From: Rickettsiales bacterium
GTDB taxonomy: Bacteria; Pseudomonadota; Alphaproteobacteria; Rs-D84
Assembly (NCBI GenBank): GCA_031260805.1
Contig: JAISKV010000001.1
Span: 84,978 to 148,977 of the forward strand
DNA: 64,000 nucleotides
Reading direction: 5' to 3'
Each line of letters begins with the position of its first letter. Positions within the stretch are counted from its first letter, which is position 1. The translations under genes and the position numbers were made by a program. The notes below the pieces were generated by a model that worked only from the letters and a program-made list of their open reading frames with translations, had not been told where the DNA came from and ran no database searches. Of the stretch, positions 5,565 through 59,621 are shown in pieces.

Positions 5565-5856
5565 AAGGTGTAGGTGAAGGTGAATGTGAATGTGAAGGTG
5601 GTGGTGCAGGTGAATGTCATTCTCCATCGTCACCCCGGGCTGCGCCCCGGGGTTCATGGCTCAATGGATTCCGGGTTTCGCAGCACTCCCCCGGAATTAC
5701 GACGGGGTATGAATTCGGTACGAGAATGACAATGGGGCCAATAATGCAGGCCATCAAAATCCCCTTCGCCAAGCGAAGGGGTGGACGCCGCAGGCGGACG
5801 GGGTAGTGGTAATAAAATTTATAAAAACAACAAATGTCAAAAAATAGAGTGAATGA

Positions 5857-8339: not shown

Positions 8340-8376
8340 TTTTCACTTTTCACTTTTCACTTTTATCTTGTATAAT
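8340..8376 (+). promoter_or_regulatory. Predicted promoter of priA C-half: (TTTTCAC)3 array plus TATAAT
   Basis: TATAAT at 8371-8376, 8 nt before ATG 8384; three perfect TTTTCAC units at 8340-8360 overlap the -35 position. Confidence 0.5.
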
Positions 8377-8383
8377 GCCGGTC

Positions 8384-9376
8384 ATGGCGGAATCACAGAT
8401 TTTATCAGAAATACTGACCGATGCGATTGCGGAAACGCTGGGCGCCGGGCATCAGGTCATGCTGTTCATCAACCGCCGCGGCCATTCCAACATAATTCAA
8501 TGCAAGAAATGCGGCTTTGTCGCGGCCTGCGATGATTGCAGCGCGGGCATGAATTTGCATAAATCCCAGAGAAAACTGATTTGCCACATTTGCGGCAAGA
8601 CTCGGCCGATGCCGCCCAAGTGTCCCGATTGCGGGAACGAATTGTCGCTGCGCGGGACCGGGATTGAAAAAGTGGCGGAAGCGGTCGCTGAAAAATTTCC
8701 CGCCGCGCGCGTCGCGCTGGTGTCCAGCGACACGATATCTTCGCGGCAATCGTTGGAACGGCTGGTTGATAAAATGGAATCCGGCGAAATTGACATAATC
8801 ATCGGAACACAGATTCTGGCCAAGGGTCATCACTTTCCGAACTTGACCTTGGTCGGGGTGATTGACGCGGACATGGGATTGTACGGGACGGACTTTCGCG
8901 CAGCGGAAAAAACTTTCCAACAGTTGTTCCAGGTGGCGGGCCGGGCGGGCCGCGGATCTGTTCCCGGGCGCGTGCTGTTGCAGACTTACCAGCCGGATCA
9001 TCCGGTTCTGCGGGCATTGGCGAACAACGATCGCGACGGATTCGCGGCGGCGGATTTGGAATCGCGGCGCGCGGCGCAGATGCCGCCATTCGGTCAATTG
9101 ATAGCGGTTATCGTTGAATGCGACAATGAAAAAAAATTGACGGAATTTTGCGAGAAATTGCGCGGCGCGGCGCCGGCGATAAATGGCGGCGGGAAAATAC
9201 TGGGGCCTATTCCGGCGCAGATTTATCAAGTGCGCAAATGGTTTCGCATGCGTTTTCTGGTGGCTGGCGGCGAGAATGATTTTCTGCAATCAGCAGTGCG
9301 CGATTGGCTGGGCAGGGTGAAGACGCCATCAAGTGTCCGTGTGAAAATTGATGTATCCCCGCAGAACTTTATGTAG
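8384..9376 (+). CDS. priA: Primosomal protein N' (PriA), C-terminal half (zinc-binding region and helicase domain 2)
   Basis: LFINRRGHSNIIQCKKCGFVAACDDC..CHICG...CPDCG...GTGIEKVAE...IIIGTQILAKGHHFPNLTLVGVIDADMGL...FQVAGRAGRG; lacks Walker A half. Track start is 8375. Confidence 0.93.
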   Translation: MAESQILSEILTDAIAETLGAGHQVMLFINRRGHSNIIQCKKCGFVAACDDCSAGMNLHKSQRKLICHICGKTRPMPPKCPDCGNELSLRGTGIEKVAEAVAEKFPAARVALVSSDTISSRQSLERLVDKMESGEIDIIIGTQILAKGHHFPNLTLVGVIDADMGLYGTDFRAAEKTFQQLFQVAGRAGRGSVPGRVLLQTYQPDHPVLRALANNDRDGFAAADLESRRAAQMPPFGQLIAVIVECDNEKKLTEFCEKLRGAAPAINGGGKILGPIPAQIYQVRKWFRMRFLVAGGENDFLQSAVRDWLGRVKTPSSVRVKIDVSPQNFM

Positions 9377-12329: not shown

Positions 12330-12364
12330 GTTATTCATTATTCGTACTCGGAACTCGTATTCTA

Positions 12365-12440
12365 TCGTCACCCCGGGCTACGCCCCGGGGTCCATTACGA
12401 ATGGATTCCGGGTTTCGCTTCGCTCCCCCGGAATGACGAT
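12365..12440. repeat. Family A palindromic repeat
   Basis: cgtcaccccgggctacgccccggggtcca...ggattccgggtttcgcttcgctcccccggaatgacga; ends 4 nt before the priA N-half stop. Confidence 0.85.
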
Positions 12441-12444
12441 TTTA

Positions 12445-13728
12445 CTATCTGCTCTTTACCCTCAAATCCACAATCTCTATCCGCGGCAGAACCGCGCCGC
12501 CAAAGCGCGCGGTCAGGCGCAGATGCCGGTATCTTCCGGACGCCGCATTTTTCAATGTCTCGAAACTGGGGGTCGCCGATGCCAGAACAATCGGACAATC
12601 TTCTATCTTGGCGCGCAGAACCGCCATATCGCGCGCGTTGTAAATGCCCTGATCTTCCTGCTTGTAAGAACCGTCATGCTCTTCATCCACAACAATCAAA
12701 TCCAATTTTTGCCATGGCAAAAATAAAGCGGACCGCGTGCCGATGACTATCTTTATTTCGCCGCCGGCAACGCCGCGCCAAATATCGCGGCGGTTTGCTG
12801 CGGTCAGATTGCTGTGCCAGACCACAGGCGGCGCGCCAAAGCGATCCCGGAACCGATTGATGAACTGCGCGGTCAGCGCGATTTCCGGCAGCATGATTAA
12901 AACATTGCCGCCATTCAGATAAGCCCGCAATGCGGCGTCAAAATAAACCTGGGTCTTGCCGCTGCCCGTGATGCCATCCAGCAGGAATGTTTGGAAATAT
13001 TTGTAAACCACCCCGCCCTGCGGGCACCCCTCCAAGGGAGGGGAACTGGCATTCGCGTTCGGTCTAAGTTCCCCTCCCTTGGAGGGGTGCCGCGCAGCGG
13101 CGGGGTGGTTTACAGGATTTACTATTTCTTCTGCTGCGGCCTGCTGCTCGGCATTCAAGACAACGCTGCCTGTGTCAAAATAATTTATGATTTCTGATTT
13201 ATGCTTTTTAATTTTCTCATCGCACCGGACCAATCCACCGTTCTTTATCATCGTATTTATGACAGAAGGCGACACCCGCGCGATATTCCTTAAATCAGCC
13301 GCGGTCATCGGCGAATTATCATTGCTGTCAAACGCATCCGCGATCGCCATCCGCGCCGCTGTTATTTTCCCGCCGCCGGCAAAACTGTATAAAATTTCCA
13401 TTTTTGGCGGTGCAAAAACCTCTGGCACATTGACGATCAGGCGCAGCACCGCGCCAGGCGCCATCATCGTCCAATCCGCCATTTTATAAATCCAAGCAAT
13501 TGCGGCGGCCGGCAGCCGGTAATTTGCAATCGGCATTGCGGATTTAATTTTTTCAGCCGGCAATCCAGAATCGCCCGGGCCGACAATAACGCCAACGAAT
13601 TTCAACGGCCCGACATTGACGCCAGCGAATTGCCCGACCATGGCCGATTCGCGCAAACGATAATCATAACCGCTGTTCACAACATTCGGAACCAGTACCT
13701 TGACAATATCGCCGCAATTGAATTTCAT
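12445..13728 (-). CDS. priA: Primosomal protein N' (PriA), N-terminal half (DNA-binding, winged helix, helicase domain 1)
   Basis: FLLDGITGSGKTQVYFDAALRA...IMLPEIALTAQFINRFRDRF...WHSNLT...IVIGTRSALFLP...VDEEHDGSYKQ...ATPSFETL; ends VDLRVKSR* where full-length PriA would enter helicase domain 2. Confidence 0.93.
   Translation of the reverse strand: MKFNCGDIVKVLVPNVVNSGYDYRLRESAMVGQFAGVNVGPLKFVGVIVGPGDSGLPAEKIKSAMPIANYRLPAAAIAWIYKMADWTMMAPGAVLRLIVNVPEVFAPPKMEILYSFAGGGKITAARMAIADAFDSNDNSPMTAADLRNIARVSPSVINTMIKNGGLVRCDEKIKKHKSEIINYFDTGSVVLNAEQQAAAEEIVNPVNHPAAARHPSKGGELRPNANASSPPLEGCPQGGVVYKYFQTFLLDGITGSGKTQVYFDAALRAYLNGGNVLIMLPEIALTAQFINRFRDRFGAPPVVWHSNLTAANRRDIWRGVAGGEIKIVIGTRSALFLPWQKLDLIVVDEEHDGSYKQEDQGIYNARDMAVLRAKIEDCPIVLASATPSFETLKNAASGRYRHLRLTARFGGAVLPRIEIVDLRVKSR
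13003..13113. repeat. Family C palindromic element inserted in frame in priA N-half
   Basis: GTAAACCACCCCGC...CACCCCTCCAAGGGAGGGGAAC...GTTCCCCTCCCTTGGAGGGGTG...GCGGGGTGGTTTAC; 111 bp = 37 codons. Confidence 0.92.
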
Positions 13729-13730
13729 AC

Positions 13731-13766
13731 GAAAAAAATACCGCACTTGGCGGTATTTTTCAATAC
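13731..13766 (-). terminator. Terminator hairpin
   Basis: aaaaataccgcacttggcggtattttt between 13778-14086 and the priA N-half. Confidence 0.7.
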
Positions 13767-31810: not shown

Positions 31811-31976
31811 ACCACTACCCCGTCAGCGGCTGCGCCGCTGCCACCCCTTCGCTTAGCGAAGGGGAATTATCCCGACTTCGTTTCAATAAATGTTGTTTTA
31901 TTGTGTGGCATAGGCCGTCAAATTCCCCTTCGCTAAGCGAAGGGGTGGACGCCGCAGGCGGACGGGGTAGTGGTGA
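31811..31976. repeat. Family B MITE-like element (full copy)
   Basis: ACCACTACCCCGTC...CACCCCTTCGCTTAGCGAAGGGG...CCCGACTTCGTTTCAATAAATGTTGTTTTATTGTGTGGCATAGGCC...CCCCTTCGCTAAGCGAAGGGGTG...GACGGGGTAGTGGT. Confidence 0.9.
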
Positions 31977-36352: not shown

Positions 36353-36531
36353 ATACCACTACCCCGTCTCCGCCTACACTACGCTTCGGCGTGATGCCAC
36401 CACTTCGTCAAGCGAAGGGGAATTGTCCCGACTTCGTTTCAATAAATGTTGTTTTGCTGCGTAATGCAGGCCAAGTAATTCCCCTTCGCTGGCGAAGGGG
36501 TGGCGGCGTAGCCGCCGGGGTAGTGGTAGAA
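36353..36531. repeat. Family B MITE-like element
   Basis: ACCACTACCCCGTC...CCCGACTTCGTTTCAATAAATGTTGTTTT...CGGGGTAGTGGT. Confidence 0.9.
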
Positions 36532-36663
36532 TTATGAATTAAGAAAGAAGAATTAAGAATTCCTGTTTATTATAGTAAACAACAATAATTCTTATTTCTT
36601 AATTATTAATTCTTAATTAAACTCTGTAAACCAACCCCGGACTTCGGCCACCCCAACCGGCCA

Positions 36664-44840: not shown

Positions 44841-45050
44841 AGGTTCCCCTCCCTTGGAGGGGTGGCCGCAGGCCGGGGTGGTTTACAGGGCAGTGAAAAA
44901 GTGAATAGTGAAAGTAGTGAAAAAAGTTAAATTTTGTCGTCGCGCTTTGCGCGACACATTCACTTCTTTCACTTTTTTAGTTTTTTCACTTAACTTTTGT
45001 AAACCACCCCGCCGCTGATGCGGCACCCCTCCATGGGAGGGGAACTGGCC
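44841..45050. repeat. Family C elements (two half-copies flanking a spacer)
   Basis: gttcccctcccttggaggggtgg...ggggtggtttaca...tgtaaaccaccccg...cacccctccatgggaggggaac. Confidence 0.85.
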
Positions 45051-46552: not shown

Positions 46553-46669
46553 AAAATTATTAGTTATTAATTGTTAGTTATTATACTTTTGTTTGTGGTG
46601 GCCAGTTGGAGTGGCCGCAGCCCGGGGTGGTTTACAGGATTTAATTAAGAATTATTAATTCATAATTGT

Positions 46670-46822
46670 ACAACTACCCCGTCCGCCTGCGGCGTCCACC
46701 CCTTCGCTAGGTGAAGGGGAATTCGTTGGCCTGCGCATTTATGATTGAAACGAAGTTGAGGCAAATCCCCTTCGCTGGCGAAGGGGTGGATTGCGCATCA
46801 GCGCAAGACGGGGTAGTGGTAA
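46670..46822. repeat. Family B MITE-like element
   Basis: acaactaccccgtccgcc...gaaggggaatt...gaaacgaagttgaggcaaatccccttcgctggcgaaggggtgg...gacggggtagtggta. Confidence 0.8.
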
Positions 46823-59376: not shown

Positions 59377-59612
59377 GCCAGTTCCCCTCCCTTGGAGGGG
59401 TGCCGCGTAGCGGCGGGGTGGTTTACAGGATTTATGATTTATGAAGTATGATGGATGGAATGACAAACTTGTTGTGAAACAAGGTTTAATGCCCTATGGC
59501 GGACTAAATCCGCCATGACAAATTTTCTGACGAAAATTTGTAAAAATTGTACTCTGAACTTTACTTTTGTAAACCACCCCGGCCTTCGGCCACCCCTCCA
59601 AGGGAGGGGAAC
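59377..59612. repeat. Family C elements (two half-copies flanking a spacer)
   Basis: cagttcccctcccttggaggggtgccgcgtagcggcggggtggtttacagg...tgtaaaccaccccggccttcggccacccctccaagggaggggaac. Confidence 0.85.
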
Positions 59613-59621
59613 TACCAATTA

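Follow-up and report, generated by a model that had tools for sequence, protein, structure and literature searches.

The window analysed here, a stretch of 64,000 nucleotides from the genome of a Rickettsiales bacterium, carries the gene for PriA in two pieces. The N-half gene (12445..13746, minus strand; recognised by TIGR00595, PF17764, DEAD and Foldseek) extends from the 3'-DNA-binding domain to helicase lobe 1, and its start is likely the ATG at 13728, since relatives begin MFxxGDIVKVLIP. It is a complete and separate gene, a correction to the "N-half" of the earlier note on this DNA. The C-half gene (8375..9376, plus strand; PF18074, PF18319 and PF00271) encodes the zinc ribbon, helicase lobe 2 and PriA_C; its start is its own, and a terminator lies upstream. 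The N-half matches TIGR00595 over the cut-off (3.8e-69) at model positions 1-177 of 509 only, and the C-half at positions 183-508 of 509 (E = 4e-105): the two matches abut at model position 183, with the halves on opposite strands and the split at the linker between lobes 1 and 2. Both halves are open, helicase motifs are intact in both, and the zinc-ribbon cysteines are kept.

Within the N-half gene, just before the matched Walker A region, lies a 111-bp palindromic element (13003..13113, minus strand), which reads GTAAACCACCCCGC...GCGGGGTGGTTTAC. It is composed of two inverted half-elements – a first arm of 45 nt (13003..13047, minus strand) and a second arm of 47 nt (13067..13113, plus strand) – separated by a 19-nt loop (GGCATTCGCGTTCGGTCTA; 13048..13066) that lies between the outer (AGTTCCCC) ends of both. 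The ends of the arms are GTAAACC and AGTTCCCC; the first arm shows up to 98% identity to other half-elements in the genome and the second shows 98% identity to several. Folding predicts that the whole element forms a single hairpin, whose stem is about 45 bp long: the DNA fold has an energy of -59.4 kcal/mol, compared to -21.4 for shuffled sequences (z = -12.9), and the RNA fold reaches -99.7 kcal/mol (z = -14.7), with no shuffle as good in either case. An mRNA hairpin of -100 kcal/mol could impede translation or be a target for RNase III. A search of Rfam with the element returned no matches.

The element is exactly 37 codons long, is in frame with the reading frame 12445-13746 on the minus strand, and is translated as VNHPAAARHPSKGGELRPNANASSPPLEGCPQGGVVY; two of the six frames of the 111-bp unit are open. 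The earlier note had described a palindromic element of this length in frame within the N-half of priA, and its coordinates proved exact, as did the count of 37 codons; the peptide it gave, of 36 letters, omits the 37th codon (the Tyr of GTT TAC).

Comparison with relatives defines the insertion. In an alignment of 16 PriA proteins (the window protein and 15 relatives, alignment A1) the extra 37 residues are found in the window protein only and both flanks are conserved; the relatives compared are about 57-63% identical, none belongs to the same genus, and the limits of the insertion are thus set at the level of protein, not DNA. The edges are clean, and the 37-residue insert is likewise absent from PriA of 32 further named relatives. 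It sits between helix LNAEQQAAAEEI and Walker A strand FLLDGITGSGKT of lobe 1, where relatives have some 7-13 residues – the short linker that the earlier note had expected – and joining the flanks without the insert would give AAAEEIVNPKYFQTF. Because the adjoining AGGATTTA is also found beside other copies of the family, the inserted unit may extend to about 40 codons. Conservation of the segment in lineages free of the repeat, or lack of relationship among the repeats elsewhere, would have argued against the earlier note's reading; neither was found, and both arms are 92-100% identical to members at other places. The analysis confirms that a palindromic repeat has inserted in frame in PriA, with well-defined limits.

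The predicted structure of the N-half protein (AlphaFold with alignment A1) has a mean pLDDT of 78. Its longest stretch below 50 comprises residues 213-249, approximately the insert, whereas helix 199-209 and strand 252-257 are intact; Foldseek ranks PriA structures first (4nl4, E = 3.8e-24), and the alignment to solved bacterial PriA chains begins at residue 250, directly after the insert. These data suggest that the insert forms a disordered loop in an otherwise normal lobe 1. In PriA, the one carrier protein that was modelled, the peptide is thus predicted to be compatible with the host fold, as a low-confidence loop.

The arms belong to a repeat family (Family C) that is well represented in the same genome (729 kb; a 15-contig draft with many repeats, 93.5% complete): 88 matches over both strands correspond to about 45 half-elements of 45-48 nt. 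Most are intergenic and paired, with the AGTTCCCC ends facing out and 13 to about 218 nt between the two members. In the priA copy and one other (C11:36003-36136) this layout is reversed, and the 111-bp unit with its 19-nt loop occurs once in the genome. The window contains two outward, intergenic pairs (44843..45046 and 59380..59613) and two partial half-elements (46608..46638, plus strand; 36624..36654, minus strand). The related intergenic copies reported by the earlier note at 44841-45050 and 59377-59612 are real; however, given their opposite arm orientation and longer spacers, they are related to the arms without being further examples of the 111-bp unit. Five of the six frames of the half-element consensus are open, a composition that eases survival in frame. 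At TsaD (L004, same genome) and HemW (L119, G011) a pair of half-elements lies over the 5' end of the gene; an N-terminal extension is possible in both cases, with translation uncertain owing to the choice of start codon.

Beyond this genome, Family C is present in 14 of the 25 genomes compared from the same bacterial family, in none of 16 genomes from other families of the order, and, in a 387-genome sample of the class, in no genome outside the family at E <= 1e-5. Spacers vary between genomes (G011, for example, has CCCAAACTTCGGATGCACTG). Among the closest PriA records with a name are those of 'Candidatus Enterousia' as well as gut or rumen alphaproteobacterial MAGs; the genus is placed in the reduced-genome order Rs-D84 (PMC12306168), to which the genome of the window probably belongs too.

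Copy-bearing reading frames in the relatives were picked mechanically and then identified by NCBIfam. The earlier note had suggested a search of coding sequences for in-frame copies, and such copies were found in core genes of the relatives: one in MnmG of G011, two in Der of G022, one in MnmE of G009 (with a further copy in MnmE of G011), one in YchF of G008, and in RlmN of G004 a full, outward paired element of 123 bp (41 codons), the corresponding position in the congener G017 being a short turn. When RlmN, MnmE and MnmG were aligned with insert-free orthologues the copies were absent from the latter, and in MnmE and MnmG the surrounding loop differs as well. Single half-elements of 42-48 bp are found in frame, as are pairs, and the half-elements are read in at least four reading frames, in several codon phases and on both strands, which argues against selection for a particular peptide. 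Reading frames of 125-270 aa overlapping other copies gave no Pfam match and were dropped as likely chance frames; two large copy-bearing frames (L070 and L172) gave no NCBIfam match and were left out of the count. Coding density is reported to be near 0.90 for the Rs-D84 group (PMC12306168): with only a handful of the roughly 45 copies in genes, most genic insertions would appear to have been lost or never fixed.

Other palindromes occur at and around priA. An unrelated CGTC-type palindromic repeat (12364..12439, plus strand; direct-repeat family D3, 92% identical to the window consensus) begins no more than about 6 nt from the stop codon of the N-half. It is a member of a second palindromic family, CGTCACCCCGGG...GGAATGACGA, which resembles the CGTC-tagged REPs and is also found at 2515, 5624, 28126, 39091 and 57197. 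Members of a third repeat family (TTCCCCTTCGC..GCGAAGGGGTGG..CGGGGTAGTGGT) lie at 5756, 31811-31974, 36397-36527, 39364, 46670-46820 and 52351, and have a two-hairpin architecture as in Family C. Among the relatives, in-frame palindromes unrelated to the window element are found in other loops of PriA (L049, L035, L037, L054, L094 and L097, being PriA of G002, G008, G013, G016, G004 and G008). That of G002 lies in the linker between lobes 1 and 2; G008 has two in the N-half and one in the zinc region; and G013, G016 and G004 (zinc region) carry others, some palindromes being inside the zinc-binding region of the C-half. Several palindrome families thus occupy loops of one gene, priA, just as different groups of Rickettsia palindromic elements (RPEs) have been found close together within the same Rickettsia genes (PMC3767692). 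The peptides NHKSEIxN and GAHTCAxGRE, coded by further AT-rich or other short repeats, recur in PriA, MnmE and MnmG of several genomes (L262, L264, L274, L281 and the window at about 13180-13210), which suggests more in-frame repeat families.

The division of priA is not confined to the window. Seven relatives of several genera (G004, G008, G009, G017, G019, G021 and G023) have the same split point with the C-half elsewhere and both halves open, which suggests a working two-piece enzyme; PriA is full-length in congeners such as G011 and in named relatives whose contig spans both halves. On a tree of the split state five changes are needed, at least two of them forced by the starred branches, and splitting has thus probably occurred more than once. 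In the window a palindrome lies directly next to the N-half stop, and in G019 one overlaps the stop; since palindromes are frequent in the intergenic DNA of these genomes, however, a causal link between palindrome and split is only a possibility. A broader conjecture, which we regard as unlikely, is that in this lineage palindromes systematically remodel core genes, repeatedly lengthening linkers in PriA and other essential proteins, and that insertion in the linker between lobes 1 and 2 has more than once divided priA into two genes whose products work together. If true, selfish palindromes would be tied to the recurrent splitting of a helicase gene. A search of the literature turned up neither these repeats nor a split PriA.

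The reading that we favor, with a probability of roughly 0.85, is that a short palindromic repeat of REPIN/RPE-like type, neither coding nor autonomous and made up of two inverted half-elements of 45-47 nt plus a 19-nt loop, inserted in frame and is tolerated in a surface loop of PriA. According to this hypothesis the half-element family multiplies mainly between genes, in a single alphaproteobacterial family whose genomes are mostly 0.7-1.1 Mb in size, and a genic copy is expected to persist only if it is divisible by three in length, has no stop in the frame used and places its peptide in a surface loop. The priA copy would have added 37 residues (up to about 40) before the Walker A strand as a disordered loop, leaving the helicase fold intact; copies that are in frame and located in loops would survive through tolerance. 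The inserted peptide is probably without any function in itself, PriA with the insert presumably still works, and the priA copy appears to be recent. Copy number and scattered positions point to mobility: the element would have moved as DNA, either through recombination or with the help of a trans-acting enzyme.

Where the enzyme is concerned, the idea of a REPIN- or BIME-type element mobilised by a RAYT (a Y1 tyrosine transposase) has some appeal: the two repeat units are inverted and joined by a short loop, and 32 outward pairs show no consistent duplication of the target site, as transposition of the HUH type predicts. The units are, however, without the GTAG tag, and a search for Y1_Tnp (PF01797) gave no match in the window's own genome (93.5% complete) and, among 12 relatives, two weak matches only, with none in the copy-rich G009: we consider movement by a RAYT unlikely. 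(An apparent excess of target duplications over shuffled sequences was traced on inspection to the palindromic TGGCCA ends.) It is improbable that priA is simply decaying, the element having entered a fragment of an already split pseudogene. PriA is indeed in two pieces on opposite strands, and a second palindrome adjoins the N-half stop codon, but decay sits poorly with open halves that keep their motifs and zinc-ribbon cysteines, with the separate start of the C-half and the terminator upstream of it, and with the same split point in seven relatives whose halves are also open.

A function for the peptide – for example, as a contact surface for assembling the PriA halves, or as a regulatory loop near the ATP site – is suggested by its position near Walker A in a split helicase. 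Yet no other relative with split PriA has an insert at that position, the family is read in several frames and on both strands in other proteins, and the model gives the peptide no structure, which makes such a role very improbable. Finally, a draft of 15 contigs with many repeats might be expected to contain misjoined sequence, but an assembly artefact that placed a repeat in priA is scarcely credible: the frame is exact on both sides, the 111-bp unit with its loop is unique in the genome, and independent in-frame copies exist in several other genomes. Tolerated insertion in frame thus remains the preferred reading.

Descriptions of protein-coding palindromes have treated them as peculiar to Rickettsia and, to some extent, Wolbachia. 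Another reduced-genome alphaproteobacterial lineage with several palindrome families in frame in essential genes indicates that the phenomenon can recur, and the many pairs of orthologues with and without an insert offer a chance to test tolerance, added function, and movement in the absence of an obvious transposase. The repeated occurrence of PriA as two genes is a peculiarity in its own right, and one that can be tested.

Among known systems, Family C shares with bacterial MITEs short length, non-autonomy, terminal inverted repeats and genus-specific spacers; it seems to differ in that the 32 pairs show no consistent target duplication and no partner IS was identified in the search, which covered Y1_Tnp. 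Like REPINs and BIMEs it consists of inverted pairs of units with a short loop and is mostly intergenic, but unlike them it has no RAYT found in its own genome, no GTAG tag, and copies within coding sequence. The CGTC-tagged REP super-family comprises palindromic dimers in alphaproteobacteria without a dedicated transposase (PMC3733652); the family at 12364-12439 looks like a CGTC REP, whereas Family C ends in neither CGTC nor GTAG. The closest parallel, already drawn in the earlier note, is with the RPEs: palindromes of 100-150 bp in many copies and several families, often in frame in conserved genes without breaking them (PMC10969869, PMC3767692). Here too there is a multicopy palindrome of this size range (111 bp) in frame in conserved genes, including core genes of relatives, and the resemblance stands in the sense of working alike, which need not imply that Family C belongs to one of the RPE families. 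The 111-bp element and the half-element ends lack the CGTC tag that R. conorii RPE-4 and RPE-6 are reported to carry (PMC3733652), the lineage is different, and single half-elements as well as pairs occur in frame. Family C is probably a different repeat from the RPEs, in a different lineage, and it is of the protein-coding-palindrome kind.
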